This document shows, in pieces, positions 22,178 through 49,250 of a stretch of DNA of 57,587 nucleotides (within the stretch, counting starts at the first letter, position 1; each line of letters begins with the position of its first letter). A program made the position numbers and the translations under genes. This DNA comes from Candidatus Thorarchaeota archaeon (lineage in GTDB: Archaea > Asgardarchaeota > Thorarchaeia > Thorarchaeales > Thorarchaeaceae), in NCBI GenBank assembly GCA_004524565.1, contig SDNZ01000004.1:1-57587 (forward strand), given 5' to 3'. The notes beneath the pieces are model-generated. The model made no database searches. It was not told the DNA's origin and was given only the letters and a program-made list of their open reading frames with translations.

Positions 22178-23266
22178 ATGACTGCAGAAGAAACTGATTC
22201 CATTGAAGTAGAGAACCGCGATGTGAATTCCAAGAAAGCATATTATGCATGGGCCGGAGCCCTGATCTTTTCTATTGCATTCACATTCATTATCTGGGCG
22301 GTAGGACCTTTTTTAGAACCATTCATTGCAATACTTGGACCTGATCTCGGAGCTGAGTGGTATTATTGGAAGCTGCCGGCTCGAGAGTTCATGACTATGT
22401 TGATTGTATGGAGTTTCTATCTTGCACATCAATTTTCTATCTGGGGATCAATCTACTGGGCACAGAAGAACCTCGTAGAATACAAGACAAGACCGACCTC
22501 CGGGTTAACTACCTACAATTGGGCAACACTTCTCATAAATGCGGTATTCATTATTCTTCATCTGTTCCAGACGCATATTTGGTTCGATGGCTTAGCCCAA
22601 GATGTCCCAATCATAACAAGTCAGGGTTCTGTAATTATAATGCTCGTACTGATTCTAGTTATGGAGAATCCAAGACGTGGATTATTCATGGGTCGAAAAG
22701 CCGGAAAACCAATTACCGCGCAGGTTTCAGGTTTCTTCAGACGCAATCACCAGTATATCATAGCCTGGGCATTGGTCTATACGTTCTGGTTCCATCCCAT
22801 GGCATATGATCCACAGCTTGTGACCGGATTCTTCTATATGTTCCTTCTTTTCACGCAGGTTTCACTGGCCTACACAGTAGTCCATGTGAATCGAGGATGG
22901 GTTGTGCTTCTTGAGAGCTTTGTAGGAGTTCATGCATTCATTGTTGCTGTTTACAATACAATTCAACATGCAAGTACTGACATGTGGGCGATGTTTGCAT
23001 CTGGTTTTGCATTCATGTTCGTCTTCACGTATATCTACGCATTCAAGGTAAGAAAGGAGATCAGATGGATTGCTGTAATAGCATATATCGGTGCATTAGT
23101 ATGGATATACCTTCCAGCTTCATTTGGAGGATACGGAAGACCGCTGACCTATCTAATGCGACTCGAATTTCTGTGGATTCCTATGATTCTCTACTTACTA
23201 GCATTTGTCTTTGCTGGGATAGTATACCTATTTCTGAAACGTAGAACTACGACAGAGACTTGGTAA
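22178..23266 (+). CDS. Polytopic membrane protein next to the hydrogenase, unknown function
   Basis: Not recognised. The 362 residues hold about ten membrane helices from residue 24 to 357. Several His and Trp residues sit in or near the helices (HQFSIWGSIYW near 86, HLFQTHIWFDG near 125, FWFHPMAYDP near 205, VHVNRGW near 235, IQHAST near 262), which could bind heme or another cofactor, although no clear heme motif exists. It runs convergent with the hydrogenase large-subunit gene, with a shared terminator between them. A cytoplasmic basic loop (NPRRGLFMGRKAGK near 165) fixes the orientation. A redox role is only a guess. Confidence 0.7.
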   Translation: MTAEETDSIEVENRDVNSKKAYYAWAGALIFSIAFTFIIWAVGPFLEPFIAILGPDLGAEWYYWKLPAREFMTMLIVWSFYLAHQFSIWGSIYWAQKNLVEYKTRPTSGLTTYNWATLLINAVFIILHLFQTHIWFDGLAQDVPIITSQGSVIIMLVLILVMENPRRGLFMGRKAGKPITAQVSGFFRRNHQYIIAWALVYTFWFHPMAYDPQLVTGFFYMFLLFTQVSLAYTVVHVNRGWVVLLESFVGVHAFIVAVYNTIQHASTDMWAMFASGFAFMFVFTYIYAFKVRKEIRWIAVIAYIGALVWIYLPASFGGYGRPLTYLMRLEFLWIPMILYLLAFVFAGIVYLFLKRRTTTETW

Positions 23267-23303: not shown

Positions 23304-24638
23304 TTATTTTATTTCAGAAACATGAACACTACAGGAAACACAGGGATCATATGAACGGACAACTGTTTCTAATTTGGGTCCTATGATCTTAGCATCCTTA
23401 ATGCCTTGTTGAAGTAGTCCTTCAGACATTCTTTTCAAATCATCTTCGAGGATGGGGAGGAACATAGCTGTAGGTGTGACAATATCAGCACCCTTCACTT
23501 TTCCATTCTTGTCAACACTGATTGTGTACGCAAGCATTCCTCGTGGTGCTTCCGTCATTGATACTCCAGTTCCCGCTTTTGTGATATGAGGTTTGATTCG
23601 CTTCTCGTTCGGTTTGTACGAGCTGAGAAGATTGTGTATGATATTCTCCGCACGTTGGATATAGTATACGACCTCAATCGCTTGAGCAAAATTATTGGAC
23701 ATAGGATTACTTGCATCAAGATACTCCACGTACATATCAGCTAGTTCCTTTGCTCTTTCAATAAGCCTATCACCGAATAGCACGTTTCGTGAAAGCGCTC
23801 CAGTCATGAAGGGCTGTTCATTGTAATGGCCATGTTTTGCAAACGAATGCTCTACAACACTCTCACAGATTCGCATCTTGTAGGCCTCAACTTTAAATTT
23901 GGTCCCATCAGATACATGCACTATATCACCCATCATTGTGTATGTTCCATCAAATGGTTCTATAGCTAAATGCAATCGCTTTGCATCAACCTCCGGCCAG
24001 TTTCTATTGCCTACCAGAGTTTCGAGAGCCTGTTCGCCTTCATTTCGCAATCCTCTAAGGCGAGTTTCCAAAATCTCTAGGTTCTTCTTGGTTGGGAGTT
24101 TGCCAAATCCACCCATCATTGCATTTTCTTGGTGGATGTATCGAGAACCAATAATGGTCTGAATATCTGCCCCGATATCCTTCAGAGCCAACCCAGCAGA
24201 AAGAACCTCAGGATAGTCCTTTGCCATTGAGAAGGCATCAGGATAACCCAAGAAATCTGGAAGAGCTAGTAGAAATAGGTGTAGCGCATGACTCTCGATA
24301 TAATCCCCAATATAGAGTAATTCACGCAGCTTGATAGTTTGCTTTGTAGGATGAAGACCAATAGCCTTCTCTGCTGCTTGTATACCGGTTATTTTATGAG
24401 CCGCGGCACAGAATGAACAGACTCGTGGAAATACAGCAGTTGCTTCTTCTACTGATTTACCCAATGTGATAGCTTCAAAATATCTGGGACCTTCAAAGAT
24501 TTTGACTTGTGAAACCTCTACATTCTTTCCATCATGACGGATCTCAATACCCGCCTTTCCTTCGATACGCGCAATGTGATCAACACTGATTTGTCGACTG
24601 ATCTTCTTTGTAGATTTCTTCTTTGTAGTTCCAGACAT
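23304..24638 (-). CDS. hydA: Group 3b [NiFe] hydrogenase large subunit (HydA)
   Basis: Catalytic subunit of a cytosolic bidirectional hydrogenase that couples H2 with NAD(P)H, also known as sulfhydrogenase. All four nickel-binding cysteines are present: RVCSFCAAAH near residue 72 and DPCVSCSVH near 435. The N-terminal SFC variant and the SVH ending are those of the 3b group. Only VSEIK follows the last His, so a long C-terminal maturation peptide is absent. The 444 residues start by sharing one base with the hydD stop. It is the last gene of the hydB-G-D-A order known from Pyrococcus. Confidence 0.95.
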   Translation of the reverse strand: MSGTTKKKSTKKISRQISVDHIARIEGKAGIEIRHDGKNVEVSQVKIFEGPRYFEAITLGKSVEEATAVFPRVCSFCAAAHKITGIQAAEKAIGLHPTKQTIKLRELLYIGDYIESHALHLFLLALPDFLGYPDAFSMAKDYPEVLSAGLALKDIGADIQTIIGSRYIHQENAMMGGFGKLPTKKNLEILETRLRGLRNEGEQALETLVGNRNWPEVDAKRLHLAIEPFDGTYTMMGDIVHVSDGTKFKVEAYKMRICESVVEHSFAKHGHYNEQPFMTGALSRNVLFGDRLIERAKELADMYVEYLDASNPMSNNFAQAIEVVYYIQRAENIIHNLLSSYKPNEKRIKPHITKAGTGVSMTEAPRGMLAYTISVDKNGKVKGADIVTPTAMFLPILEDDLKRMSEGLLQQGIKDAKIIGPKLETVVRSYDPCVSCSVHVSEIK

Positions 24639-25453
24639 TAGTCAGTACCTCCGTAGATTTTCTTCAACATTGGCTCAAGGTTGGGATTATGGGCTCCGAA
24701 GATTCTGAATCGTTCTCGAACTTGGTCCTTCGAGATTCCTTTATTCTTGAAAGTCATAGCCAATGAATCAAACCAAGCAGTATCGTGTGGTACTGGTCCT
24801 CTACACCCGATACATGGTACATTGAATGTAATGCATCGAGCTTTGCAGCCAGCTGTTGTAACAGGGCCAAGGCATGGTTCACCACGTTCTATCAAAATAC
24901 ATGGATTCCCAGCAAGTCGACATTCCGAACAAACTGGATAGTCTTTGGGCTCTGGAAATGTTCCGAAGAGAAAGGCGGAGATGAAGTACATTATCTCATC
25001 TTCTTCGGGAGGACAACCGGGAAGATAGTAATCTACCTCCACATGTTTTGAGATGGGAGTGGCCTGAAGACCTTTCATCCCAATCTTCCCTGTACCATAT
25101 ACCTTAGCATGGAGCTCTTCGTGAGTCATCTCACCTTCAGCCCAGCTCTGGACACCACCATTAACGGAGCAAGCACCAAGAGCAACAAGAATCCGTGAGT
25201 GTTTCCGAATCTCATAGAGTTCCTCCAGATCCTTCTCTGTAGAAACTGAACCTTCGACAAACGCAACATCGACATCTGCAGGATGTTTGCTGGCACTGGA
25301 TAGCATGTAGAAACTTTCAAAGCTTACAGCATTTGCAATCTCCATAATTTTCTGCACTGTTGCAAGTTTGAGTTGACAACCATAACAGGAAGTCAGAGCA
25401 TAGACCCCAACTCGCGGTTGGCATTCTCCATCGCAGCCATCTATTATTGCCAT
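24638..25453 (-). CDS. hydD: Group 3b [NiFe] hydrogenase small subunit (HydD)
   Basis: Electron-transfer subunit that pairs with HydA. The proximal [4Fe-4S] cluster cysteines are at ALTSCYGCQ near 20, GACSVNGG near 94 and LPGCPP near 144; further Cys groups (CSECRLAGNPC, GPCL-like, CKARC, CIGCRGP, residues about 170-215) bind more clusters. The 271-residue length is normal. It overlaps hydA by one base and follows hydG by a one-base gap. Electrons pass from the nickel site through these clusters to the flavin of HydG. Confidence 0.95.
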   Translation of the reverse strand: MAIIDGCDGECQPRVGVYALTSCYGCQLKLATVQKIMEIANAVSFESFYMLSSASKHPADVDVAFVEGSVSTEKDLEELYEIRKHSRILVALGACSVNGGVQSWAEGEMTHEELHAKVYGTGKIGMKGLQATPISKHVEVDYYLPGCPPEEDEIMYFISAFLFGTFPEPKDYPVCSECRLAGNPCILIERGEPCLGPVTTAGCKARCITFNVPCIGCRGPVPHDTAWFDSLAMTFKNKGISKDQVRERFRIFGAHNPNLEPMLKKIYGGTD

Positions 25454-25454
25454 T

Positions 25455-26330
25455 TCATATCAACCCCGGAATGCTTGTGATGGCATAATAATCGAAAACA
25501 GGACCATCCTTGCAGGCGTATTTCCAACTCGTTGCAGTGCCAATATTGCAATGACCGCATTTACCCACGCCACATTTCATTCTCCGTTCGAGAGTGACGA
25601 AGATGTATCGAGGATCATAACCTCTGGCAATGAGTTCCTCGAACATGCCCTTGTACATAGCTGGAGGACCGCACATCGCAACAGCACAGTTCTTTGGATC
25701 AACATTGACTTTCTCGAAGTGAGATGTTGCTCTACCGTGTAATCCTTTGAAATCAGGGTCACGTGTTGCAGTCTGAACAATAGAGATGTCCTCTGCAGTA
25801 GCAATATCCTTCATAGCTTCAAGTTCTCGTTTGAAGAGTAATTCGTTCCCGAATTTTGCACTGTTGATGATGGTTATGTTACCAAACAACCAGCGGTTAT
25901 CAATCGCATAGAGAAATACAGATCTCAATGGAGCCATACCAAGACCAGCAGCGACCAGTAACAAATCACGATTATAGAATTGCTCCATTGGAAAGCCATT
26001 ACCATAAGGACCACGGATTCCAACAAGTGAACCGGGTTGTAGTTTATGAATCTGAGAAGTGACGCGACCAGCATTTCGAATACACAGTTCAAAGAAACCC
26101 ATTCTTCGTGCAGAAGAACAGATTGAGATTGGAACCTCTCCTAGACCAAGTAAGGATACTTCTACAAACTGCCCAGGTTTAAATCTCCAATTCGTTGCAA
26201 TCTCTGGATCCTCAAAACGGAAGAGAAATAGTTTGTCGCTTTCTGATAGTTTGTATTTTCTCAGCAGTCGACACTTAGCAGTATCATAGATATTCTCTTT
26301 CCCTTCATCCTGTGTTTTACTCTGTGACAT
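25455..26330 (-). CDS. hydG: Hydrogenase gamma subunit, FAD/NAD(P)-binding reductase (HydG)
   Basis: Flavin and NAD(P) binding subunit of the 3b hydrogenase, of the ferredoxin-NADP reductase type. About 291 residues: FAD domain about 10-110 (KPGQFVEVSL, VPISICSS), NAD(P) domain about 115-235 (GPYGNGFPM, LLLVAAGLGMAPLRS) and a C-terminal [2Fe-2S] site (CGVGKCGHC plus a later Cys). The ATG at 26330 shares one base with the hydB stop (TAATG); the upstream continuation of the frame, to 26468, looks non-coding because it lies inside hydB and is unlike the family. Confidence 0.92.
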   Translation of the reverse strand: MSQSKTQDEGKENIYDTAKCRLLRKYKLSESDKLFLFRFEDPEIATNWRFKPGQFVEVSLLGLGEVPISICSSARRMGFFELCIRNAGRVTSQIHKLQPGSLVGIRGPYGNGFPMEQFYNRDLLLVAAGLGMAPLRSVFLYAIDNRWLFGNITIINSAKFGNELLFKRELEAMKDIATAEDISIVQTATRDPDFKGLHGRATSHFEKVNVDPKNCAVAMCGPPAMYKGMFEELIARGYDPRYIFVTLERRMKCGVGKCGHCNIGTATSWKYACKDGPVFDYYAITSIPGLI

Positions 26331-27376
26331 TATGAATACCCTCCTTTGTACCCAGCAATTTCCATGAGATTCTTCTTGAATTGAATATCCGCAGGACAAA
26401 AGTATGTACAACGTCCACAACCTACACAAAACGATGTAGTTGTGGCTGAACAATAGGAATTCTTGCACTGGTATCGGTTATGGAATCTATCTTGTTTTGT
26501 TTCTCGGAAATTGTGATCTCCTGCTACTAAGCCGTGAGAACGAAATTGACAGGAATCCCAGAATCGAATCCGCTCACCCGTTCTTCCATCAATACTTGGA
26601 ATATCCTGTACGTCATAGCATTTACATGATGGGCATGTGAGTGTGCAATTCCCGCACCCCAAGCATTTCTCACTCTCCCGTATATACATCGGGTGATTAA
26701 GACGCAATTCCATGAAATATCGCAGATTATCCCAGTTCCCCTGCGTTGTAAACATCGAGGTACGTTTCTCTTCGAATTTTGACATATTTTCAGTATCGTC
26801 AGGACATACTTCTTCGAAAAGTTCGCCCTCATAGGGATCTACAAGTTTATGCCCTACTACTGTACCAACACGAACCAGAAAGCCATCAGGAAGCTCGTGG
26901 AAAAAGAGATCAAATCCAGCATCGACAAACTCCACACGTCTAACGTTACAGAAACAATACTCATCTGGAAGACATGAAAGACCAATTACAATCCCATTCT
27001 CTCGCCGTGATTTGTAGTAAGGGTCAGGTTGGTCATCTATAAATTTTGAGTCCATTGTTCGAAGTGCAACGATATCACACGAATGGACTCCAAAGAGAAT
27101 CTGCTTCTTGTCAGAAGGAAGATTTTCGTATAGTTCAACCTTACGAGTATCAAAAGTAAATAGAACCTCTCTCTCGGGATAAAAGAACCGACGTGGTGGA
27201 CGGATAGTTCTCTGGTACTCAAACATGACATCCTTCACATCGTCAACTTCACAAAAATCAAAGAACTTCTCAGATATCTTATGAGGAGCATAGAGAGTTC
27301 CAATCTTCTTTAATCTCTCAAGAAACTCGTAGGTGTTTTGCTTGGATATCTTTACATACCTCAAGAGTGGGGACAC
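26330..27376 (-). CDS. hydB: Hydrogenase beta subunit, 4Fe-4S protein (HydB)
   Basis: Iron-sulfur subunit that links HydD to HydG. The 348 residues begin with a long alpha/beta domain (CxxD motif GVHSCDIVALRT near 97, SCLPDEYCFC near 134) and end with two ferredoxin-like motifs, CLGCGNCTLTCPSCKC near 235 and CVGCGRCTYFCP near 320. This fits the Pyrococcus hydB protein. The start is uncertain: GTG at 27376, or a TTG at 27364 that lies 9 nt after GAGGTG. It is first in the operon and divergent from the HdrA gene. Confidence 0.92.
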   Translation of the reverse strand: MSPLLRYVKISKQNTYEFLERLKKIGTLYAPHKISEKFFDFCEVDDVKDVMFEYQRTIRPPRRFFYPEREVLFTFDTRKVELYENLPSDKKQILFGVHSCDIVALRTMDSKFIDDQPDPYYKSRRENGIVIGLSCLPDEYCFCNVRRVEFVDAGFDLFFHELPDGFLVRVGTVVGHKLVDPYEGELFEEVCPDDTENMSKFEEKRTSMFTTQGNWDNLRYFMELRLNHPMYIRESEKCLGCGNCTLTCPSCKCYDVQDIPSIDGRTGERIRFWDSCQFRSHGLVAGDHNFRETKQDRFHNRYQCKNSYCSATTTSFCVGCGRCTYFCPADIQFKKNLMEIAGYKGGYS

Positions 27377-27557
27377 CTCATTATTACACGTGAAACAATT
27401 CGTTAGTAGAATAGATTGCTAATAAAATGGTAGATGTGGACGTGGCATTTTCGTTAGAATTGATATAGAACTTAACACGCTTAAGGTCAAGACAGAAAGA
27501 TTATATCGGCCCCGCGATTGAAGCCGCCGTTACAACCTGACACTGGAGTCAATTCCT
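27377..27557. promoter_or_regulatory. Divergent promoter region, hydrogenase and double HdrA
   Basis: The 181 bases between hydB and the HdrA gene must hold both promoters. On the plus strand AGATTATATCGG around 27499-27510 resembles a TATA element, about 50 nt before the HdrA start. The part after it is G+C-rich (CGGCCCCGCGATTGAAGCCGCCG, positions 27509-27531), unlike the rest of the gap. No clear operator is visible. Confidence 0.35.
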
Positions 27558-30500
27558 ATGGCCAGCAAGGCAGCCAAAAAAACGGACACAAACCCCAAAC
27601 CTACTGATGTACTAGTGATCGGCGGTGGAATGGCTGGTATCAGTGCCTCACTTGGGCTTGGAGATGGTGGACATCACGCTCATATCGTTGAGAAGACAGT
27701 AAATATTGGTGGCAATTATGTTGCCATCTACAAAATATTCCCAGCCCTTGAATGTTCTGCGTGTGTTATGACCCCATTAACCTCCTTCGTGGGCAAACAT
27801 CAGAATATTACAATTCATGCATTGTCTACAATTGAGAAAGTAGAAGGAGAGGAAGGGGACTTCACTGTCACTATCCGACAAAAGGCAAGGTATGTGGATC
27901 CAAACAAGTGCACAGGTTGTGGGCTTTGCGTAGCGGCTTGTCCAGTCGAGGTTCCAAATGAGTATGACTTCGGTCTCTCACTTCGAAAGGCGATTTACTT
28001 TAATTTCGCACAACAAATACCACTAGTATCGACGATTGACCGAGATTCCTGTATTGGCTGTGGAACCTGTGCAGCAATATGTCCACAAGGTTGTATAGAT
28101 TATTCAGATAAGGACAAGGTATTCAAACTGAATGTTGGATCGATTATTGTTGCTACAGGATTTGAAGAGTACAAGCCTATAGACTACGGTGAATATGGTT
28201 ATGGAGTATTTCCCAATGTACTCACTTCTCTTGAGTATGACAGACAAACTCATCCAACTGGACCAACCGATTCACACATGGTACGACCATCGGATGGTCG
28301 AGAACCTGATAAAGTACTCTTTGTTAATTGCGTAGGAAGTAGGGATGTCAGAGAGAATATCACAGGATACAGCAATCACTGCAATAGGGTGTGTTGTTCC
28401 TTTGGTGTAAAACTAGCACAGGTCACCAGAATGCATTACCACGAGTGTGAGATAATCTATACATACATGGATATGCGTACTGCAGGAAAAGCCTTAGAAG
28501 AATTCCTTTGGGATACTGAGAAGAACAAAGGAGTCAATTTTATTCGAGGTAGAGTATCTGAGATTCAGGAAGACCCGGATACACATGACCTGTTTGTAAA
28601 AATGGAAGATACTGTTACCGGAGAGATAATTGAAATCGATAAGGTCTCCATGGTTGTGCTCAATTCAAGTTTCAGACCAAGTAAGGACTTCGAAGAACTT
28701 GCCAAGATACTAGAGATAGATATTGATGAAACTGGATGGGTGAAAGAGAAACATTCCAATGCAGGAGCACTTGAAACCAACAGACCGGGTATCTTTGTTG
28801 CAGGTTGTGCGCATGGTCCAAAAGATGGAACAGATACTGTTAATGAAGGCAAAGGGGCGGCAATGGCTGCACACTCAATACTTCCAATTCCAACACCTGA
28901 AGCGCTTCCTGAAATCCCGCCTGCAGAGATGGGAGATGAGCCAAGAGTTGGAGTCTTTATCTGTCATTGTGGAGGTATCATCTCAAACGAGATAGACACA
29001 GCAGCTCTTGCAGAGTGGGCAAAGGATATTCCCAATGTAGCGTTTTCAACAGATTACATTTTCATGTGTTCGGACCCAGGACAAGAATTTGTCACAAATG
29101 CAATCAAAGAACATAAACTGAATCGTGTTGTCGTTGGATCGTGTTCCCCTCTTCAACATGAGGAAACATTTCGAAGTGCCATGGAAGCTGCAGGTCTGTC
29201 AGGGTACTATCTTGTTGGACCTGTTGGATTGAGAGAACACCTAGCACTGGTTCATACACAAGCACCACCAGAGGTTAGACAGGAAAAGGCACAAGATATG
29301 ATTCGAAGTGGTGTAGCAAAAGCACTGCGAAATGAAGTGGTTCCCAGAAAGAAAGTAGAGGTTACAAGAACCTCAATGGTTGTTGGGGGCGGAGTATCAG
29401 GAATGACTGCAGCATTAGATATCGCTAGGAAAGGTTTCAATGTCATTCTTGTTGAGAAACAGGACAAGCTTGGAGGAAGATTGAATGAACTCCATAACAT
29501 CTTTCCCAAGATGAACTCTGCTCAAGAGATTGTTGATGATCTTATAGCTCGTGTGCGAAAAGAGAAACTAATCGAAGTCATTCTAAATAATAAAGTTGTA
29601 GCTCGAAGTGGGTCATACGGTAACTATGACATTACAATAGAAGATGTAAATACGGGAACTCAGACAGTCCATCGAATTGGAACGATGGTACTCACTGTAG
29701 GGATGGACACCTATGATCCGAAAGAGGGAGAATATGGATGGGGTACCGTTCCTCAAGTGATTTCATCTTTGGAATTGGAGAAGAAGCTTCGTAATGGAGA
29801 ATTGAAGAAAGCACCGAAGAATCCAGTCTTCATTCATTGTGTTGGCTCCAGACAAAATCCAGGTGAAGGAAATAGATACTGCTCCCGAGTCTGTTGCTCT
29901 GCGGTCATCTCTATGCAGCATGAACTCAAAGAGATGTTCCCAGATGTCAAGATATTCTCAGCGTATAAGGAGCATATCCGCCCCTTCGCAAATGGAATGG
30001 AAGAAATGTGGCGTGAGAATAGGCAGAAGGGAGTTGCATACCTTCGCTGGGAACGAGAAAGACCAGTGACTATAGAGCAATCAATAGATGGAAAGGAAGC
30101 AATCGTGACCATCTATGATACCCTATCACAAGAAACCTTCAATATTCACTCGGATATGATAATTCTTGCACTTGGTCTTGAAGCTCCACATGATGTAGAT
30201 GAACTTGCGAAGGCCTTGGGAATTAACAGAGGGCAAGATGGATTCTTATCAGAGATGCATATGAAATTCCGACCAGTCGAGACCACAGTACCTGGTGTAT
30301 TTGTTGGATGTACCTACGCAAAGAACGTCGCTGATTCTGTTAATCAAGCCAGAGGAGCTGCAAGTGAAGCTTGTAACCCACTTAATCTTGGAACTGTAGA
30401 GATAGAGCTTCTTACTGCAGAAGTCGATCAAGAGCTCTGCGTTGGATGTGATCTCTGTCATTATTCAGAGATATGTCCCTATGATGCGATTTCAATGATC

Positions 30501-30656
30501 GAAGTGGAACCAGGAGTAAAGAAGAGTGTCACCGATGAGTTACGATGCGAAGGATGTGGTGCGTGTACAGCAATCTGTCCCACTGGTGCAAGAGATATGA
30601 GATGGTGGCGTGAGGAGAGCTTCCTCGATGAAGTCGAAGAAATGCTCAGGGAGTGA
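27558..30656 (+). CDS. Heterodisulfide-reductase-type HdrA, double-module flavoprotein
   Basis: A 1032-residue flavin/iron-sulfur protein made of two HdrA-like modules in one chain. First module: FAD motif VLVIGGGMAGISA near 20, the cluster segment ALECSACVMTP near 70, two [4Fe-4S] motifs (CTGCGLCVAACP near 119; CIGCGTCAAICP near 158) and CVGSR...CNRVCCSFG. Second module: ICHCGG near 471, a second FAD motif VVGGGVSGMTAALDIA near 610, a Cys-free stretch where the first has ECSAC, CVGSR...CSRVCCSAV, then two C-terminal clusters (CVGCDLCHYSEICP; CEGCGACTAICP). HdrA proteins can bifurcate electrons at a flavin between ferredoxin, disulfide and hydrogenase. The start is an ATG preceded by GGAGT. 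Confidence 0.93.
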   Translation: MASKAAKKTDTNPKPTDVLVIGGGMAGISASLGLGDGGHHAHIVEKTVNIGGNYVAIYKIFPALECSACVMTPLTSFVGKHQNITIHALSTIEKVEGEEGDFTVTIRQKARYVDPNKCTGCGLCVAACPVEVPNEYDFGLSLRKAIYFNFAQQIPLVSTIDRDSCIGCGTCAAICPQGCIDYSDKDKVFKLNVGSIIVATGFEEYKPIDYGEYGYGVFPNVLTSLEYDRQTHPTGPTDSHMVRPSDGREPDKVLFVNCVGSRDVRENITGYSNHCNRVCCSFGVKLAQVTRMHYHECEIIYTYMDMRTAGKALEEFLWDTEKNKGVNFIRGRVSEIQEDPDTHDLFVKMEDTVTGEIIEIDKVSMVVLNSSFRPSKDFEELAKILEIDIDETGWVKEKHSNAGALETNRPGIFVAGCAHGPKDGTDTVNEGKGAAMAAHSILPIPTPEALPEIPPAEMGDEPRVGVFICHCGGIISNEIDTAALAEWAKDIPNVAFSTDYIFMCSDPGQEFVTNAIKEHKLNRVVVGSCSPLQHEETFRSAMEAAGLSGYYLVGPVGLREHLALVHTQAPPEVRQEKAQDMIRSGVAKALRNEVVPRKKVEVTRTSMVVGGGVSGMTAALDIARKGFNVILVEKQDKLGGRLNELHNIFPKMNSAQEIVDDLIARVRKEKLIEVILNNKVVARSGSYGNYDITIEDVNTGTQTVHRIGTMVLTVGMDTYDPKEGEYGWGTVPQVISSLELEKKLRNGELKKAPKNPVFIHCVGSRQNPGEGNRYCSRVCCSAVISMQHELKEMFPDVKIFSAYKEHIRPFANGMEEMWRENRQKGVAYLRWERERPVTIEQSIDGKEAIVTIYDTLSQETFNIHSDMIILALGLEAPHDVDELAKALGINRGQDGFLSEMHMKFRPVETTVPGVFVGCTYAKNVADSVNQARGAASEACNPLNLGTVEIELLTAEVDQELCVGCDLCHYSEICPYDAISMIEVEPGVKKSVTDELRCEGCGACTAICPTGARDMRWWREESFLDEVEEMLRE

Positions 30657-30661
30657 GTCGA

Positions 30662-31228
30662 TTGACCTCTCTATCTAGCCTTCGAGCGGTATGGATGGTT
30701 CTCAATGATCTCATGGGAGACCTAGAGAAGAATGGTGTTCTACTCTCAGATCTCGCCTATGCAGATCTTCGTAACTCTAAGATGGTAATAGAATATCTAA
30801 ATTCCTTTGAAGATGAGATACGAGCAAGTGAGGGTGGAGATACCACACTCAAACTGGAGATAGAACAGAAGGTCCTTGTTCTGAAAGATTCACTCCTCAT
30901 CCGAGCAGGGGACAAAGTTGGAGATGAATATCGCAAAGAATGGGAATCCAAGTTCGAGCAAGCCTTGGAAGGAAAACTAGACAAGGTAGCAGAAGAAACA
31001 AGGACACCCATCTCAGATATTCCGCGGGATAAGGATACAGCATTTTTCAGAATAAAGTTGCCCGATGAAATTCCAGTAGAGATTGTCTCAGAACTTGCGG
31101 AAGACTGCCAAGTCAATGTATCACTAGACGGTGAAAGGCACCTCCAAGTAAGTGGAAAGAAGGAGTGCGTTCGTGATGCCATGAAAAGGCTTGGTGAATT
31201 ATTCTATGGCGAGAGTAAGTTAAAGTGA
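30662..31228 (+). CDS. DUF2096-like conserved archaeal protein
   Basis: A soluble 188-residue helical protein that resembles the DUF2096-type archaeal proteins. I am moderately sure of the family name. The layout is an N-terminal helical part (about 1-120, LRAVWMVLNDLMGDLEKNG, DLRNSKMVIEYLNSF) and a C-terminal alpha/beta part (about 125-185, FFRIKLPDEIPVEIVSELAEDCQVNV). I place the start at TTG 30662, 8 nt after AGGGAG, rather than at a GTG at 30653 that overlaps the HdrA stop and lies inside that ribosome site. It is coupled to the double HdrA gene and may assist it. Confidence 0.65.
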   Translation: MTSLSSLRAVWMVLNDLMGDLEKNGVLLSDLAYADLRNSKMVIEYLNSFEDEIRASEGGDTTLKLEIEQKVLVLKDSLLIRAGDKVGDEYRKEWESKFEQALEGKLDKVAEETRTPISDIPRDKDTAFFRIKLPDEIPVEIVSELAEDCQVNVSLDGERHLQVSGKKECVRDAMKRLGELFYGESKLK

Positions 31229-31301
31229 TTGGCGCCATTGTTTGGAAATTAACAATTTTTAATGCATGGACTTAATATTACAGGGGTAACGTCCTACAAT
31301 T

Positions 31302-31427
31302 ATGAAAGCCACTAGGCTCTACACTCGAGTCTATCTGGCGCGATCAAAAGACCGCCGGGAGATGGATGCAGTCGAAGATTTGAGTAAGATTAAGATCGAT
31401 CATTTCAGCATTTATAAGCCAAACTAG
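31302..31427 (+). CDS. Small basic protein, hypothetical
   Basis: A 41-codon ORF (MKATRLYTRVYLARSKDRRE at the start) that begins at an ATG after a weak GGGG ribosome site and is followed, about 30 nt later, by a strong hairpin with a T-run. An AT-rich stretch (TTAACAATTTTTAATG, from about 31248) upstream could hold a promoter. The Arg/Lys-rich first half and the acidic second half (MDAVEDLSKIKID) look protein-like. It fills part of a 396-base region with no larger gene. It could equally be a chance ORF in a small RNA. Confidence 0.35.
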   Translation: MKATRLYTRVYLARSKDRREMDAVEDLSKIKIDHFSIYKPN

Positions 31428-31459
31428 AATAGACCTTTGCACCAGATCTTAGTATTATT

Positions 31460-31500
31460 AGCCCTATGAGAATAAGCTCTATGAGGGCTGTTTTTGTTTT
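31460..31500 (+). terminator. Hairpin and long T-run in the gap after the HdrA operon
   Basis: AGCCCT (31460-31465) pairs with AGGGCT (31484-31489), with GAG/CTC inside, followed by GTTTTTGTTTTTTT. It ends transcription from the HdrA-DUF2096 operon, the small ORF, or both. Confidence 0.75.
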
Positions 31501-31586
31501 TTTGAAGTATTCTGAAGGTTATCCATAGTATACTAAACTAAAGAATGCCTATTCAAGCTCATTCTTTTTGGGGTCCAAAATTGTCA

Positions 31587-31595
31587 TTATAAATA
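31587..31595 (+). promoter_or_regulatory. TATA box before the acidic surface protein gene
   Basis: TTATAAATA lies about 30 nt before the ATG at 31625. With the usual archaeal spacing to the start of transcription this predicts a very short or absent leader, and supports 31625 over an upstream TTG at 31568, which would lie before this box. Confidence 0.55.
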
Positions 31596-31624
31596 GAAGA
31601 AACAACGAACTATTTGTGAAAATT

Positions 31625-32902
31625 ATGAAGAGACTGCACGTTTCAAAAGTACTTCTTTTTGCGCTGATGTTTCTATTAGTAGCATCACTCTCACCTGCCA
31701 CTGCTTTTACAATAAGTGGGGATGATACTACTACAGAAACTGAAGACAAAACGGAAGAAACTCATACTGATGATGATAAACACGATCTGGATGAATATCG
31801 TGATACAAATGGAACAGTCTGGATAGAAACTGATGTTATGACAGTTACTTTGGACCCCAAACTGCCAATCTATCAATATTGGTATACTGGAGATGAGAAT
31901 GGTAGTCTAGCACGGTTCATGATCAGTTACAAAATGATTGTTGAATTCGAAGATTCCAATGGGGATGGTATCTATCAACCTAATGAAACCCTAGCTTTTG
32001 TACCCCTCGATGCATTCGAATGGAGTCTACAGACTGGTGAAATTACAAATGATCTAAATGAAGTTACAGAAGTATATGCATCATACACGAAAGGCGGACT
32101 AAGCTACAAGTTTGAGGATGATTGGTACGAAGAATGGATGCCTGAGATAGAAGAGGAGGAAGAAGAACCCGTAATACTTGCTAGTGAAGATCCAGAAGAC
32201 CATGCTTTCGCAGATTTCGCTGGAATGACCCTTCGTTTCTATGGTCATGTATATACAACGGACTATTTTGGAAACGTTAGTGATGACTTTGGGGTAGAAA
32301 GTAATTATACAGTTGCTGGCGGAATGGAACTCAAAGTAGACATTGAAATTGGTAATTTCCCATTCATATCAGAAACATCAAAGGTTGCTGTTCTAAATTA
32401 TCTTATTGAGGATGTTGCATCTAGTGGTGAATATGAACACAGTTACGAACTTCACGAAAAGGATGGAGATAATGAAGTTGACTCAGAAGATGTTTCTGAT
32501 ATCTATGGAATAGGGTTTGAAGATCGCGATGAAAATCACGATGGACAGGATGATGATATCCAACAAATCTCCGTCGTTGATGGAACCAATAACCTGACAA
32601 GAGGTCTATATTCCTGGCTTGATAAAGCGATAATCACAGACCTGAATGGAACTGAAACAGCTGTTGATGTAGATACATCATACTGGACCGATGGTGAGGG
32701 TCTCTTGCTATTCTTTGCATATCCCAACTTCGATGGAGGATCGCTACTTCATGATCCAGCATTAAGACTGCTTGATACTGGATCACCCATAATTCAACCA
32801 ACAGGAATTTTGAATCTGCCAATGGAAACTATTACCTTGATTGGTGTCGCTTCTGCAGTAGTTATAGTTGCAATTGCAGGTTTTGCCATTAAGCGTCGAT
32901 AG
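31625..32902 (+). CDS. Acidic surface protein with C-terminal membrane anchor, unknown function
   Basis: Not recognised. About 425 residues: a signal peptide (about 3-28, RLHVSKVLLFALMFLLVASLS), a long Asp/Glu/Thr-rich extracellular part with many N-x-S/T sites and two likely metal-binding acidic stretches (DSNGDGIYQPNE near 115; EDRDENHDGQDDD near 300), and a C-terminal helix (about 400-420) followed by KRR. This is a typical layout of a membrane-anchored archaeal exoprotein. The DxNxDG-type loops suggest calcium binding. It is followed by a terminator, so it forms a single-gene unit. Confidence 0.7.
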   Translation: MKRLHVSKVLLFALMFLLVASLSPATAFTISGDDTTTETEDKTEETHTDDDKHDLDEYRDTNGTVWIETDVMTVTLDPKLPIYQYWYTGDENGSLARFMISYKMIVEFEDSNGDGIYQPNETLAFVPLDAFEWSLQTGEITNDLNEVTEVYASYTKGGLSYKFEDDWYEEWMPEIEEEEEEPVILASEDPEDHAFADFAGMTLRFYGHVYTTDYFGNVSDDFGVESNYTVAGGMELKVDIEIGNFPFISETSKVAVLNYLIEDVASSGEYEHSYELHEKDGDNEVDSEDVSDIYGIGFEDRDENHDGQDDDIQQISVVDGTNNLTRGLYSWLDKAIITDLNGTETAVDVDTSYWTDGEGLLLFFAYPNFDGGSLLHDPALRLLDTGSPIIQPTGILNLPMETITLIGVASAVVIVAIAGFAIKRR

Positions 32903-32905
32903 AAA

Positions 32906-32930
32906 GAGGAAGCTCGCTTCCTCCCTTTTT
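32906..32930 (+). terminator. Hairpin and T-run after the acidic surface protein
   Basis: GAGGAAG and CTTCCTC form a 7 bp stem around CTCG, followed by CCTTTTTTA. Confidence 0.75.
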
Positions 32931-32973
32931 TATCAAAACAGATGAATTATTAGCAATAGAAGGAAACTACGAG

Positions 32974-33993
32974 TTGGTCTACATGTCTGTTACAGCTAAG
33001 AGCACGCTATTCGTTGCAGCAATCCTCATTCTTGGTTTGATTGCTTCAGCTTCGCCTATTGATGCACAAGCAGATTCACAAAACATACTTATGACAAACA
33101 TGAGGATTCATGCAGAATTGGTACCAGATTGCAACACAACTATTGTGCTAGAAACAGAATTTACAAATGAGGCTAGTACAGAAATTAGCTCTTTTGGTAT
33201 ACGTGTAGATGTAAGAGGTCTTTATGTAAATGAGGCGACCATTGACGGATTATTTACTGAAACAACAGTTCAAACGGTAGATAACTATGTGGTTGTTTCA
33301 ATTATACCAAATACTTCAATTCCAATAGGTGCTCAAGGGAATCTCTTTCTGAATTTCACAACCAGATGCCTTCAAGAAATGATTGGATTGAATAGTGATG
33401 GCTCGATGTATGATAGTCATCTCATCTACTACATTCGATCTTTAAATCAGATTCAAAATCTAACATTCTCTGCAGCGCTTCCACAACATGCAGTGATTGA
33501 TTTGGATGCAGCAGCACCACTATATCCAAGCCCTACAAGAAACCATACTGATGGTAGCAGGTCAGTCTACTTATGGTACACAGACGTTCTTCTTCCTGGG
33601 CAGGAAATTGTGTATATCATAAAATACCAGATGCCTGCAGCCCTCATCGATACTAGTGATATAATTCCTGTCACTTCGAGTCCGCTCTTTGTTGCCTTTG
33701 TATCAGCAGTACTAGCAGGTTTCGCTGTGCTTTTTATAGAGAGACTACCAGGCTGGATTAGAGGCCTGAATTCAAGAGAGTTGATTGTTAGTGGAAAGAT
33801 TTCCAGTCAGGAACAGGAAATTCTTGATCTGCTCAATGTTCGTGGCGGCTCATGTCCGCAGAGGGAAATCTATGAGCATCTGGATATGTCCCAATCAATG
33901 GCAAGTATGATGCTTACTTCTTTGGAAGGGCGAGGTCTAATTAAGAGGCTTCGAAGTGGTAGAGAGAATATAGTCCACATAATGGAGGATTAG
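32974..33993 (+). CDS. Membrane-spanning winged-helix regulator with exoplasmic sensor
   Basis: A one-component membrane regulator, 339 residues. N-terminal signal or anchor (about 8-30), a beta-rich outside domain (about 35-215) with N-glycosylation sites, a second membrane helix (about 230-250, PLFVAFVSAVLAGFAVLFIE), then a cytosolic winged helix (about 270-339: SSQEQEILDLLNVRGGSCPQ, EIYEHLDMSQSMASMMLTSLEGRGLI). The DNA-binding domain is MarR-like. It could sense something outside the cell and act on DNA directly. The start is TTG at 32974, 9 nt after AAGGA; ATG at 32983 is the alternative. It overlaps the convergent HdrB gene by 4 nt. Confidence 0.75.
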   Translation: MVYMSVTAKSTLFVAAILILGLIASASPIDAQADSQNILMTNMRIHAELVPDCNTTIVLETEFTNEASTEISSFGIRVDVRGLYVNEATIDGLFTETTVQTVDNYVVVSIIPNTSIPIGAQGNLFLNFTTRCLQEMIGLNSDGSMYDSHLIYYIRSLNQIQNLTFSAALPQHAVIDLDAAAPLYPSPTRNHTDGSRSVYLWYTDVLLPGQEIVYIIKYQMPAALIDTSDIIPVTSSPLFVAFVSAVLAGFAVLFIERLPGWIRGLNSRELIVSGKISSQEQEILDLLNVRGGSCPQREIYEHLDMSQSMASMMLTSLEGRGLIKRLRSGRENIVHIMED

Positions 33994-34913
33994 GATTCCT
34001 CCATCTTGATACCTAGCTTCTCCCATGCTGGTGCAGTCTTCCGCTGCATATATTGCAGGTGGGTTGCTAGGCCAAATTCATCAGGCTCATGTCCAAAAGC
34101 AAGAGCGAGCAATTCCACAACATGGAGAATGTCGAGAGTATATTCCTTCTCAAAGTATTTTTGTATCTCGACTTGACCCATGTCTAGCTGCAGTTCACAG
34201 AATGGACATGGTGTAATCATCATGTCTGCTCCACCAGCTGCGTTGAGACTATCGAACTTTTGCATAGTGAATTCTAATGCAATCTTTACATCTGCAGTCC
34301 TAACAGCACCACCAGCACCACAACATATGAGCTCATCTTTGTAGGGTACATAGGTCGCACCAGATGTCTCACAAAGTTCTCTGAAGATGTGGGGCCGTTC
34401 GGAATCATCTTTTTGTTTGATATTCTTAGGGCGCATCCAGTGGCATCCTGGATGAAGTGCCATTCGTACTCCAGTGAAAGGTCGAATCACCTTCTCTCTA
34501 ATCTTAGAGAGACCTGCAATTTCTACTAGAGCATCAACATAATGCCAAACTTCTATTGTTCCCTTGAACTCACGGTCGACCACAGCTAAATTCTCGTTGA
34601 CTGCATCTCTGAGTTCATCATCATGTTTCAATTCATGATTAGCATCCCATAGGCTGGCAAAACAACCATTACATCCAGTGGTTATCGGATGACCACCAGC
34701 TTCAGCAATAGTAAGATTACGAGCAGCAATAGTTGCCCAAGTGACACGATCGAAGGAACCAAAGACACCAGGTGCAGGACAGCATGTTGCACCATCCATA
34801 TCCAGAAGGCCCATTCCGAGGTCGTTGAATACTAACTTGACTGCTTTCTCAACACTAGGATATCTGTGCGGTATAATACAACCCAGAAAGTGATAGAACG
34901 ATTTGTTTGCCAT
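33990..34913 (-). CDS. HdrB-type disulfide reductase subunit (copy 2)
   Basis: HdrB carries two non-cubane [4Fe-4S] clusters and reduces a disulfide in methanogens. The 307 residues contain both CCG motifs: C12, then CC near 44, then CNGC near 81; and later GC near 154, LICC near 194 and CPFC near 234. Both are complete, so the subunit should be functional. Methanogen-type CoM/CoB disulfide is not implied, because no methanogenesis genes are here. It is followed upstream (minus strand) by its HdrC partner with a 3-base gap. A mirrored copy lies at 36201-37100. Confidence 0.92.
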   Translation of the reverse strand: MANKSFYHFLGCIIPHRYPSVEKAVKLVFNDLGMGLLDMDGATCCPAPGVFGSFDRVTWATIAARNLTIAEAGGHPITTGCNGCFASLWDANHELKHDDELRDAVNENLAVVDREFKGTIEVWHYVDALVEIAGLSKIREKVIRPFTGVRMALHPGCHWMRPKNIKQKDDSERPHIFRELCETSGATYVPYKDELICCGAGGAVRTADVKIALEFTMQKFDSLNAAGGADMMITPCPFCELQLDMGQVEIQKYFEKEYTLDILHVVELLALAFGHEPDEFGLATHLQYMQRKTAPAWEKLGIKMEES

Positions 34914-34916
34914 ATC

Positions 34917-35468
34917 TTATTCCTCCTTCTGCTTCTTCTCTTCAATCAGTTTGTCAAAACCAGTTTTCTTGGCGATTTTCTTGATTTCCTCTATAGCTTC
35001 AGAGTATCTACTTGCATTAGGAGGTACTCGTTCAAGACCAACCTTCTCGCGTAGATTTTCCCAAGACTCTTTATCCAATGGTACAGCATGACCTGCTTCG
35101 AGAACCTTCAATGCTGTCTTTTGGTGAGGTTCGAGCATATACCCTTCAGCTACTGCAATATTTCGGATAGCTTTGATTACATCTGTTGGCTTTACATCTT
35201 GAGGACAGCGATCTGTACAAGTGTAACAGGTTGTACAATACCATAACTCTGGTGCAGAGATACACTGTTCTTTCAACCCGAGGAGTGCCTTTCTGATAAT
35301 CCCTCGAACTAGATAGTTTGTGCGGGCTCCAGCAGGACAGCTACCTGAACAGGTCCCACACTGGTAGCAATTTTGGATATTAGGACCTCCTGTCTTCTTT
35401 ATCATTTGCACAAAAGAGTCATCTGGAGTGTCGATATCAATTGCGGTTTTGTCTTCAGCACTTGTCAA
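34917..35468 (-). CDS. HdrC-type iron-sulfur subunit (copy 2)
   Basis: Partner of HdrB, a small protein with two [4Fe-4S] clusters that carries electrons from HdrA to HdrB. The motifs are CYQCGTCSGSCP and CTTCYTCTDRCP, near residues 34 and 79. I start at a TTG at 35468 with GGTG 7 nt upstream, giving about 183 residues like its paralogue at 35655; the frame is open up to 35600 but that part is unlike HdrC and would extend into the shared promoter. The C-terminus is Lys/Glu-rich (KKTGFDKLIEEKKQKEE), as in the copy 1 protein. Confidence 0.9.
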   Translation of the reverse strand: MTSAEDKTAIDIDTPDDSFVQMIKKTGGPNIQNCYQCGTCSGSCPAGARTNYLVRGIIRKALLGLKEQCISAPELWYCTTCYTCTDRCPQDVKPTDVIKAIRNIAVAEGYMLEPHQKTALKVLEAGHAVPLDKESWENLREKVGLERVPPNASRYSEAIEEIKKIAKKTGFDKLIEEKKQKEE

Positions 35469-35654
35469 GATAATACACCGACTACGGAGGTGGGCTTGAA
35501 TCTCATCCTTAAATCCATTACCGAAAGGTCGTAAAATTCGATTGCGTGAATAGGTGATATAAGCAAATTCAATAGAGCTCTTTGTAATAAGGCAACTCAA
35601 TGCTTATATCCCACTAAACAAGGGACCCGACCACCGAAATGCAGAGGAACTTTG
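35469..35654. promoter_or_regulatory. Divergent promoter between the two HdrCB pairs
   Basis: About 185 bases between head-to-head HdrC genes. A GATATAAGC stretch near 35556-35564 is a possible TATA element. The arrangement means the two pairs could be switched together from one region. GAGGAAC lies just before the ATG at 35655. Confidence 0.4.
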
Positions 35655-36200
35655 ATGACTGATAATATCTCTCGCGAAACAATCCATAACGAAGCAATCG
35701 ATCCAGACTTTATCGATGCGATTGTAGATGCTGGTGCAGATAGGATTAGAACCTGTATCCAATGTGGAACCTGTTCTAGTGTCTGTCCTAGTGGCCGACG
35801 GACTGCATTTAGAACTCGCGAACTTATGAGGAAGGCTCTTTTAGGTCTCAAAGACGAAGTTCTATCGAGCCCAGATCTCTGGCTATGTGCAACGTGTCTT
35901 ACTTGCTTAGAACGTTGCCCCAGACAGATCAAAGTAACTGATGCAATTATCATCATGAGAAATATGGCTGTAGCGGAAGGGTACATGCTCCCGCAACACA
36001 GAAAATCTTCAAAGAAACTTCTGGAAACTGGTCATGCAGTACCCATAGATGATGCAAATCGTGAAATAAGAAAAAACCTAGGTCTCAAGGAGATTCCTCC
36101 AACTGTTCATTCAAGTGATGAAGCACTTGCGGATGTACAGAAAATAATGGAAAGAACAGGATTCAAGAAACTCATTGAAGAGGAAAAGGAGGAGAAATAG
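35655..36200 (+). CDS. HdrC-type iron-sulfur subunit (copy 1)
   Basis: Two [4Fe-4S] motifs, CIQCGTCSSVCP near residue 34 and CATCLTCLERCP near 79, in 181 residues. The sequence is clearly paralogous to copy 2 (shared MRNMAVAEGYMLPQHRK and GHAVPIDD segments). The ATG at 35655 has GAGGA 6 nt upstream and is preferred over a TTG one codon earlier. The stop is directly followed by the HdrB gene. It probably accepts electrons from the double HdrA. Confidence 0.93.
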   Translation: MTDNISRETIHNEAIDPDFIDAIVDAGADRIRTCIQCGTCSSVCPSGRRTAFRTRELMRKALLGLKDEVLSSPDLWLCATCLTCLERCPRQIKVTDAIIIMRNMAVAEGYMLPQHRKSSKKLLETGHAVPIDDANREIRKNLGLKEIPPTVHSSDEALADVQKIMERTGFKKLIEEEKEEK

Positions 36201-37100
36201 ATGACTGAATCCCAAACATACTCTTTCTTTCTAGGGTGTGTAATGCCAAATAGATTCCCTAATGTTGAGGCTAGCATACGACTTGTGTTGCCAAAATTGG
36301 GTATCGAACTAGAGGATCTTGAAGGCGCAAGTTGTTGTCCAGCACCTGGAGTGATACGATCCTTCAGTGAGCCTACGTGGTTAGCACTTGCGTCAAGAAA
36401 TTTAGCTCTTGCTGAGATGGCTGGACATGACCTTCTCACAGGATGCAATGGTTGTTACGGAACTTTCAAGGAAACTCTGTCGGAGATTCGGGAGCATCCT
36501 GAGCGATTGAAAGAAGTTCAAAGTGTGTTCAAAGGAATGGGACTCAAGTTCAAAGGTGAAGTTGAGGCAAAACATCTGATAGAGATCATCTATGAGCTTG
36601 ATCCGGAGAATATTAAAAAACGTCTAACTAAATCTCTTGAAGGTATCAAGGTAGGAGTGCACTATGGTTGTCATCTACTAAAACCGAGTAAGAATAGACC
36701 TTGGGGGCAGACACAACGTCATACATTCCTCGATGAACTTGTTGAATTGACAGGTGCAACTAGTACTAAGTACAAAGACAAATTCCTATGTTGTGGAGCA
36801 GGTGGTGGAGTACGCGGTAGTCAAGTTGCAGTAAGTGTAGATATTGCAAAAGAAAAGCTAGACAATTTGTTAGAAGTTGGTGTCGACTGCATTGTCAATG
36901 TTTGTTCATTCTGCCATCTCCAGTACGAAGCGTCCCAGGTGCAACTCAACAAGGAACTAGGAGAGAAGAAGTACCAAATCCCAGTAATATACTATACACA
37001 ACTACTAGGTTTAGCGATGGGTCTCGATCCAATGGAGCTTGGATTAGGTGTTCATATGATTAGCACGCAGCCATTGCTGGATAAGATACTAGGCAAGTAA
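36201..37100 (+). CDS. HdrB-type disulfide reductase subunit (copy 1)
   Basis: A 299-residue HdrB with both CCG motifs complete: FFLGC at 13, SCCPAPG near 45 and CNGC near 82; then YGCH near 157, LCCGAGG near 198 and CSFC near 235. It starts directly after the HdrC stop, so both are coupled. It resembles copy 2 in full length but differs at many positions, which points to an old duplication with possible different disulfide or persulfide substrates. Confidence 0.93.
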   Translation: MTESQTYSFFLGCVMPNRFPNVEASIRLVLPKLGIELEDLEGASCCPAPGVIRSFSEPTWLALASRNLALAEMAGHDLLTGCNGCYGTFKETLSEIREHPERLKEVQSVFKGMGLKFKGEVEAKHLIEIIYELDPENIKKRLTKSLEGIKVGVHYGCHLLKPSKNRPWGQTQRHTFLDELVELTGATSTKYKDKFLCCGAGGGVRGSQVAVSVDIAKEKLDNLLEVGVDCIVNVCSFCHLQYEASQVQLNKELGEKKYQIPVIYYTQLLGLAMGLDPMELGLGVHMISTQPLLDKILGK

Positions 37101-38716: not shown

Positions 38717-39058
38717 ATGTCAACGGTAAGGAAACCAATCACACCAAGACCTCCCAGAAGCCGAGAAAAGGTCTTAGTAATTCTTCAGGAGCAGTGCAAG
38801 CAATGCGGGCTCTGTATAGAATTTTGTCCTAAGAATGTCCTCTGCCTTACAGATATTTACAATCGGAAGGGATACCATCCTGTCACAGCGTGTGATATTG
38901 ATGCCTGTGTGAATTGTGAGTTCTGTGAACGCATATGTCCAGACATGGCAATCTTTCTCGTTGGTAGAGAAGAAGCCGAGAAAGCATACAAAGCTGGAGC
39001 AATACAGGAAGGTACAGTGATTCCTGAGTTCGAGGTGGCAAAGGAGGAGTCAAAGTAA
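38717..39058 (+). CDS. korD: 2-oxoacid:ferredoxin oxidoreductase, delta (ferredoxin-like) subunit
   Basis: A 113-residue two-cluster ferredoxin that is the electron exit of a Kor/Vor-type oxidoreductase. The motifs are CKQCGLCIEFCP near 28 and CVNCEFCERICP near 64, preceded by a Pro/Arg-rich N-terminus. It shares one base with the KorA start (TAATG), so the two are coupled. The enzyme converts 2-oxoacids plus CoA to acyl-CoA, CO2 and reduced ferredoxin. The B and C subunits lie 3 kb downstream. Confidence 0.92.
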   Translation: MSTVRKPITPRPPRSREKVLVILQEQCKQCGLCIEFCPKNVLCLTDIYNRKGYHPVTACDIDACVNCEFCERICPDMAIFLVGREEAEKAYKAGAIQEGTVIPEFEVAKEESK

Positions 39059-42985: not shown

Positions 42986-42986
42986 G

Positions 42987-44712: not shown

Positions 44713-44721
44713 TATATAACC

Positions 44722-45939: not shown

Positions 45940-45949
45940 TATGTTCACC

Positions 45950-49087: not shown

Positions 49088-49097
49088 ACCAAGTATA

Positions 49098-49131
49098 GCG
49101 GGAGTGTAATCTCCCGCAACTCTATTTTTTT
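49098..49131 (+). terminator. Hairpin and T-run between the two acyl-CoA ligases
   Basis: GCGGGAG (49098-49104) and CTCCCGC (49111-49117) form a 7 bp stem around a 6-base loop, followed by a run of T from 49124 to 49131. Confidence 0.78.
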
Positions 49132-49250
49132 CATACAAACGAATTTCCGTTTGGTTCTACGTTTTTCCCAAAACCTCAACAAATATCAGAAGAGGAAGCA
49201 ATACAAAAAAGAATGGAGTTTACATCCAATAATAGAGGAGTTTGAAGAAT

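Follow-up and report, generated by a model that had tools for sequence, protein, structure and literature searches.

The 57,587-nucleotide stretch of DNA analysed here (the window; contig SDNZ01000004.1 of a Thorarchaeal genome whose nearest named record, Candidatus Thorarchaeota GLR93, is 77% identical) encodes a tandem HdrA protein, HdrAA, close to two HdrCB pairs and a [NiFe] hydrogenase. The locus raises the question of whether a doubled heterodisulfide reductase (Hdr) subunit serves two different HdrCB pairs in one electron-splitting complex, as the sequence-only reading of this DNA had suggested. A two-output machine of this kind now appears unlikely. A slightly better than even chance is given to HdrAA being a lopsided HdrA dimer in one chain, with one splitting site, HdrC1B1 as the likelier partner and HdrC2B2 at work elsewhere. 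The genes on which the question turns are the following:

27558 to 30656, plus strand: HdrAA, a tandem (type II) HdrA of 1032 residues, by profile matches and an AlphaFold2 model
27558 to 28892, plus strand: half 1 of HdrAA (residues 1-445), with FAD-1, C69, the inserted 2[4Fe4S] domain, the HdrC-facing cluster, K285 and D228
28926 to 30656, plus strand: half 2 of HdrAA (residues 457-1032), with the N-domain, FAD-2, the HdrC-facing cluster, the C-terminal 2[4Fe4S] domain and S785
33990 to 34913, minus strand: HdrB1, two five-cysteine CCG modules, both intact
34917 to 35468, minus strand: HdrC1, two [4Fe4S] motifs
35655 to 36200, plus strand: HdrC2, two [4Fe4S] motifs
36201 to 37100, plus strand: HdrB2, two five-cysteine CCG modules, both intact
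23304 to 24638, minus strand: HydA, group 3b-type [NiFe] large subunit, with the Ni-ligand motifs RVCSFC and DPCVSC
24638 to 25453, minus strand: HydD, hydrogenase small subunit, by profile match
25455 to 26330, minus strand: HydG, FAD/NAD(P)-binding subunit, by profile match
26330 to 27376, minus strand: HydB, Fe-S subunit, divergent from HdrAA across a 182-base gap

The arrangement first read from the letters alone, with hydB-G-D-A divergent from the 1032-residue HdrA and two HdrCB pairs lying head to head (33990-35468 on the minus and 35655-37100 on the plus strand), was borne out by gene calls and profile matches. HdrB1, HdrC1, HdrC2 and HdrB2 all scored above the NCBIfam cut-offs for subunit B or C of the CoB-CoM heterodisulfide reductase (TIGR03288/TIGR03290) and, with two CCG modules in each HdrB and two [4Fe4S] motifs in each HdrC, both pairs would be HdrBC of that type, with CoM-S-S-CoB as the putative substrate. 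The proposed search of other genomes recovered the gene set in synteny in 25 related genomes (the family; labelled G, with the 86% complete window genome as G000), and because the synteny holds over all of them the arrangement is not due to chance. HdrAA and HdrC1B1 were retained in 25/25 and HdrC2B2 in 24/25 genomes, the two pairs staying head to head across genera. The observation named beforehand as damaging to the link, an HdrA gene with no HdrCB nearby, is thus not what the family presents: the linkage of HdrAA to an HdrCB pair persists in almost all genomes, and G008, which lost HdrC2B2, retains HdrC1B1.

The two halves of HdrAA are not equivalent. Half 1 comprises a TrxR/FAD domain with an inserted two-cluster ferredoxin and has neither the N- nor the C-terminal domain, whereas half 2 consists of the N-domain, a TrxR/FAD domain without the inserted ferredoxin, and the C-terminal ferredoxin, so that the order along the chain is TrxR/FAD-1 with inserted ferredoxin, N-domain, TrxR/FAD-2 and C-terminal ferredoxin. 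The equivalent of Cys197 (C69 in the window) occurs in half 1 of all 23 HdrAA proteins that cover the position and in half 2 of none, and the N-domain is confined to half 2. An equal duplication of HdrA was ruled out, the domains of the halves being complementary. Two TrxR/FAD domains in one chain, with the N-domain and Cys197 on opposite halves, are the marks of type II HdrA and, judged by its sequence, HdrAA is a divergent, MvhD-less variant of this tandem class. The AlphaFold2 model of the whole chain (predicted local distance difference test 88.3; predicted template modelling score 0.89) had HdrA chains as its closest solved structures in a single-chain Foldseek alignment, the best being 5odc.

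Fusions of this kind are a published class, and it no longer holds that Hdr complexes are known only as a single HdrABC set together with MvhADG (PMC9012536, PMC11237513, PMC12054007). Type II HdrA is described from methane-metabolizing archaea as a fusion of two HdrA classes (PMC12054007), the N-domain and Cys197 are complementary in the HdrA3/HdrA4 fusion and in tandem HdrA5/6 and 12/13 of anaerobic methanotrophic (ANME) archaea (PMC9012536), and PMC11237513 already counts HdrA-HdrA fusions in Thorarchaeota and Lokiarchaeota, often with a C-terminal MvhD. A set of 80 loci, drawn from Asgard, Bathyarchaeal, Thermoplasmatal and Archaeoglobal genomes and from many bacteria, contains 62 fused genes with this half order; among the 46 tandem genes with enough flanking sequence, MvhD was fused or lay within 1.5 kb in 30, and HdrB or HdrC lay within 5 kb in 35. 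Many of the bacterial tandem genes (L206, L212, L223, L228 and similar) seem truncated in half 1 ahead of the inserted ferredoxin; their homology nevertheless extends upstream, and one explanation would be an in-frame stop codon decoded as selenocysteine.

The number of splitting sites was approached through the flavin-site residues of 24 family HdrAA, 16 HdrAAM (fusions of the order HdrA-HdrA-MvhD) and 50 other tandem HdrA. The lysine K409 stabilises the bifurcating flavin, and type II HdrA of methane-metabolizing archaea carries K409 and E356 in both halves (PMC12054007), a feature on which the type is not based there and one that HdrAA does not share. Half 1 retains K409 throughout (24/24 family HdrAA, K285 in the window; 16/16 HdrAAM; 50/50 others). 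In half 2 the lysine is found in 0/24, 0/16 and 36/50, respectively, its position being taken by alanine, serine or threonine in all 24 family HdrAA (S785 in the window), which retain half-2 E356, and by glutamate or glutamine in all 16 HdrAAM, where half 2 has lost E356 as well as K409. Since 14 of the 50 other tandem proteins also lack the half-2 lysine, the feature is variable and not defining. Published Hdr structures show a trans arrangement, in which the flavin of each HdrA is fed by the mobile N/C-terminal arm of its partner (PMC12350162). With one set of arm, flavin and exit in HdrAA, the half-2 flavin is predicted to be free to decay, which matches the loss of K409 there; this single working set, together with a lysine in half 1 only, makes one splitting site likely, not two. 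The domain split and the one-sided loss thus yield a testable rule, with half 2 as the arm and half 1 as the reactor.

HdrAA would then work as follows. In the published Hdr structures the flavin passes one electron via the HA4' cluster to HdrC/HdrB, and the second travels by way of the shuttle cluster of the arm to the inserted ferredoxin domain of the flavin-bearing HdrA. Half 2 of HdrAA would supply the arm, and half 1 the competent flavin, Cys197, the HA4'/HdrC exit and the ferredoxin exit. Bifurcation would take place at half 1 only, with reduction of ferredoxin and, at one HdrCB, of a disulfide or some other acceptor. Of the two pairs HdrC1B1, which is encoded separately, is the likelier partner. 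HdrC2B2 would go to a canonical HdrA (contig C102 of G000, 44412-46382), and the 3b hydrogenase would be a separate NAD(P)-linked enzyme, the carrier pool probably giving it and HdrAA common substrates and common control. If true, such a scheme helps to explain how low-potential ferredoxin is produced in these Asgard archaea. The biochemistry of type II HdrA is scarce, and one published reading allows two bifurcation reactions per chain.

The assignment of HdrC2B2 draws on an outgroup operon, trees and distance covariation, which agree. In G032 a single unit (L115 3-8921) runs HdrC-HdrB-ferredoxin-KorA-KorB-KorC-HdrA-MvhD-MvhG-MvhA, and HdrC2B2 of the window adjoins the equivalent ferredoxin-Kor genes. 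HdrB2 is sister to the G032 HdrB in the tree, with a modest support of 82, and the canonical 657-residue HdrA of the family (HdrA657), an orphan gene in the window genome, is sister to the canonical HdrA of G032 with support of 90. Covariation of distances was computed over 18 genomes with three control proteins partialled out and 21 pairs tested, the covalently joined halves of HdrAA giving a reference r of 0.39. For HdrC2 the partial r was 0.43 (p 0.001) with HdrA657 but 0.01 with half 1 of HdrAA; for HdrC1 it was 0.23 with half 1 of HdrAA, no more than suggestive (p 0.06), and 0.01 with HdrA657. In G008 the locus is intact and still holds HdrAA, HdrC1B1 and HdrAAM, but HdrC2B2 is cleanly missing from it, and no HdrA657 turned up in that genome. 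HdrC2B2 probably serves the separate canonical HdrA encoded elsewhere, and HdrC1B1 may be considered the likelier partner of HdrAA. Because HdrC2B2 lies beside HdrAA and yet probably serves another HdrA, adjacency can be an unsafe guide to partners where a genome is rich in Hdr genes.

The stated lack of an mvhD-like gene holds for the window, on whose contig a profile search gave no FlpD/MvhD match, but not for the genome, in which seven FlpD/MvhD-type stretches lie elsewhere, along with several HdrA types and many further HdrA genes. In 19/25 family genomes the locus also carries HdrAAM and a third pair, HdrC3B3; the clade of the window (G000, G001, G005, G009, G013 and G014) has neither there and has retained HdrC1B1. 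That the locus lacked MvhD ancestrally is accordingly not favoured. In three genera (L146 10383-17188, L148 5114-12573 and L150 11351-18493) one strand carries HdrC1-HdrB1-[HdrA-HdrA-MvhD]-HdrC3-HdrB3.

Several observations weigh against the one-site assignment with HdrC1B1. In both halves the HdrC-facing cluster keeps its four cysteines (24/24 each; C258/C275/C279/C280 and C761/C775/C779/C780 in the window), so half 2 may bind HdrC and the structure would allow two docking faces, like those of an ordinary (HdrABC)2 dimer. Half-1 E356 is replaced by aspartate in 24/24 family HdrAA (D228 in the window), whereas it is glutamate in 50/50 other tandem HdrA; even site 1 may therefore not bifurcate, or may be slowed or changed. 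Covariation is weak, the certain pair HdrC1-HdrB1 reaching only 0.07 among the 21 pairs. HdrA657 was not found in G002, G003, G007 and G012, which carry HdrC2B2, a result that is not decisive since these genomes are 80-91% complete. In G018, G019 and G022, HdrC1B1 lies 256-374 bases upstream of HdrAAM on the same strand. Finally, the reading assigns no donor to the C-terminal ferredoxin of HdrAA.

The substitution in half 1 leads directly to the alternative that HdrAA is a non-bifurcating conduit with the flavin pair broken in both halves, exchanging electrons between ferredoxin and some other carrier, possibly with no HdrCB involved. The residue pairs, aspartate-lysine in half 1 and glutamate with alanine, serine or threonine in half 2, are both fixed in 24/24 orthologues, the branch of HdrAA in the tree is long (1.18 changes per site), and HdrAA has neither an adjoining MvhD nor an HdrCB on its own strand. 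A conduit of this kind nevertheless seems unlikely, though it deserves some weight: half 1 retains K409, the change from glutamate to aspartate is conservative, and every cluster cysteine is kept.

More doubtful is the original proposal of one complex with two different high-potential outputs, in which HdrAA would hold HdrC1B1 and HdrC2B2 on different halves. What stood of it is the linkage of both head-to-head pairs to HdrAA across genera and the retention of the HdrC-facing cluster in each half. Against it stand the missing lysine of half 2 (24/24) and the lack of a partner arm for that half. HdrC2B2 in particular is an unlikely second output of HdrAA, since it tracks HdrA657 by operon, tree and covariation and since G008 kept HdrAA after losing this pair; HdrB1, moreover, is on the strand opposite to HdrAA wherever both occur in one stretch. 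The position of HdrAAM between C1B1 and C3B3 on one strand in G018, G019 and G022 implies that a tandem protein with two pairs may exist in the family, and HdrAAM so flanked is a stronger candidate than HdrAA of the window for a complex with two HdrCB pairs.

The hydrogenase was correctly recognized as the NAD(P)-linked 3b type: HydA, HydD, HydG and HydB had models of the NAD(P)-dependent sulfhydrogenase (sulfhydrogenase 1) as their best NCBIfam matches (E 1e-101 to 1e-150, all below the equivalog cut-offs), and the four subunits, including the NAD(P)/FAD-binding HydG, occur in one operon with the Ni-ligand cysteines in place. HydA is the sole clear [NiFe] large subunit of the window genome at its 86% completeness, and a 3c-type MvhAG was not seen there. 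Orthologues (60-83%) are present in 10/25 family genomes and absent from 15/25, all having HdrAA, by which an obligate partnership was ruled out. Where present, as also in the GLR93 record (L188), the operon is divergent from HdrAA (10/10), the distance to HydB being 133-3542 bases. The preferred reading is an independent enzyme that has the NAD(P)H pool and a regulatory region in common with HdrAA.

Direct docking of HydB-HydG on HdrAA in place of MvhD, with H2 or NADPH feeding bifurcation, is very improbable. It would account for the divergent placement within 3.6 kb of HdrAA in all ten genomes, for HydB/HydG-like genes that come after HdrAA-MvhD in L190, L203, L205, L208 and L219, and for 3b-type genes adjoining tandem HdrA in the Bathyarchaeal L195 (2-11870) and Thermoplasmatal L201 (1232-12800) contigs. 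Those other lineages also have MvhD, however, 15/25 genomes carry HdrAA without the hydrogenase, and 3b hydrogenases work alone. In the FlxABCD-HdrABC system of anaerobic bacteria, genes for HydG/HydB-like subunits (NAD(P)-binding and Fe-S) reportedly neighbour the Hdr genes; there the MvhD-like FlxD has the NAD(P)H module on one side and HdrA on the other, whereas the window has no FlxD/MvhD and its HydG/HydB-kind subunits are part of a complete hydrogenase. The Flx system (Ramos 2015) is cited in PMC9430772. An MvhD-free, two-acceptor bifurcating complex, combining a tandem HdrA with one flavin site, 3b HydB-HydG as feed and two different HdrCB pairs, is less probable still. Least probable of all is that HdrAA has no fixed HdrCB and that both pairs are common to several cellular HdrA proteins, for although the genome has several HdrA types, HdrC2 covaries with HdrA657 and not with half 1 of HdrAA.

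Compared with known systems, the one-chain HdrAA dimer shares with type II HdrA the two TrxR/FAD domains per chain and an N-terminal half without N- and C-terminal domains (class A6-like), and differs in the loss of half-2 K409, in half-1 E356D and in having no adjoining MvhD gene (PMC12054007). With fused and tandem HdrA of ANME archaea it shares the complementarity of N-domain and Cys197 and the proposed self-heterodimer in one chain; in ANME HdrA3/4 the N-domain half comes first, in HdrAA the Cys197 half (PMC9012536). The fusions counted in PMC11237513 come from the same lineage, and HdrAA of the window differs from them in lacking the MvhD domain. As in MvhADG-HdrABC (5ODC) and Elp-Hdr (PMC12350162), every HdrA domain is present once over the two halves and the HdrB and HdrC motifs are intact; HdrAA is nevertheless a heterodimer in one chain, not a homodimer, the window contig has no MvhD encoded with or fused to HdrA, and the hydrogenase is 3b-type, not 3c. 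The HdrA fusion and the likely logic of self-dimerization are thus already known. As far as the literature shows, four points are new: the MvhD-less Thorarchaeal lineage, the K409 loss fixed in half 2 alongside half-1 E356D, the coupling to DUF2096 and the reassignment of HdrC2B2.

The DUF2096 gene and the 2-oxoacid:ferredoxin oxidoreductase genes adjoining HdrC2B2 had been overlooked in the sequence-only reading:

30653 to 31228, plus strand: DUF2096 protein, a helical bundle with a KH-like domain, its start overlapping the HdrAA stop
38717 to 39058, plus strand: small 2[4Fe4S] ferredoxin of the oxidoreductase cluster
39058 to 40194, plus strand: KorA, 2-oxoacid:ferredoxin oxidoreductase alpha subunit
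42140 to 42985, plus strand: KorB, beta subunit of the same enzyme
42804 to 43544, plus strand: KorC, gamma subunit, matching from residue 64, with the true start probably near 42990

In the window the overlap of DUF2096 with HdrAA is four bases (GTGA), a translational coupling of the two genes. DUF2096 adjoins HdrAA in 25/25 family genomes and is its only same-strand partner in all 25, and further copies lie next to HdrCB in G029 and G018 (L106 8705-9277; L299 9010-9534). A literature search on DUF2096 found no paper; the protein is a candidate Hdr-associated assembly factor or regulator. On the other side of the hydrogenase, positions 22178-23266 encode a conserved multi-span membrane protein without a Pfam or NCBIfam family match, which adjoins HdrAA in many relatives lacking the hydrogenase. 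Its six conserved histidines (84, 128, 191, 206, 236 and 252) would be compatible with a heme-binding (b-heme) protein, and a membrane anchor is likewise possible. Further downstream, an acyl-CoA dehydratase activase and two HgdD/benzoyl-CoA-reductase-type subunits (43942-47158) precede a pair of acyl-CoA ligases (47336-51002) and, at 53537-55255, an acyl-CoA dehydrogenase-like gene; this set possibly consumes ferredoxin made nearby.

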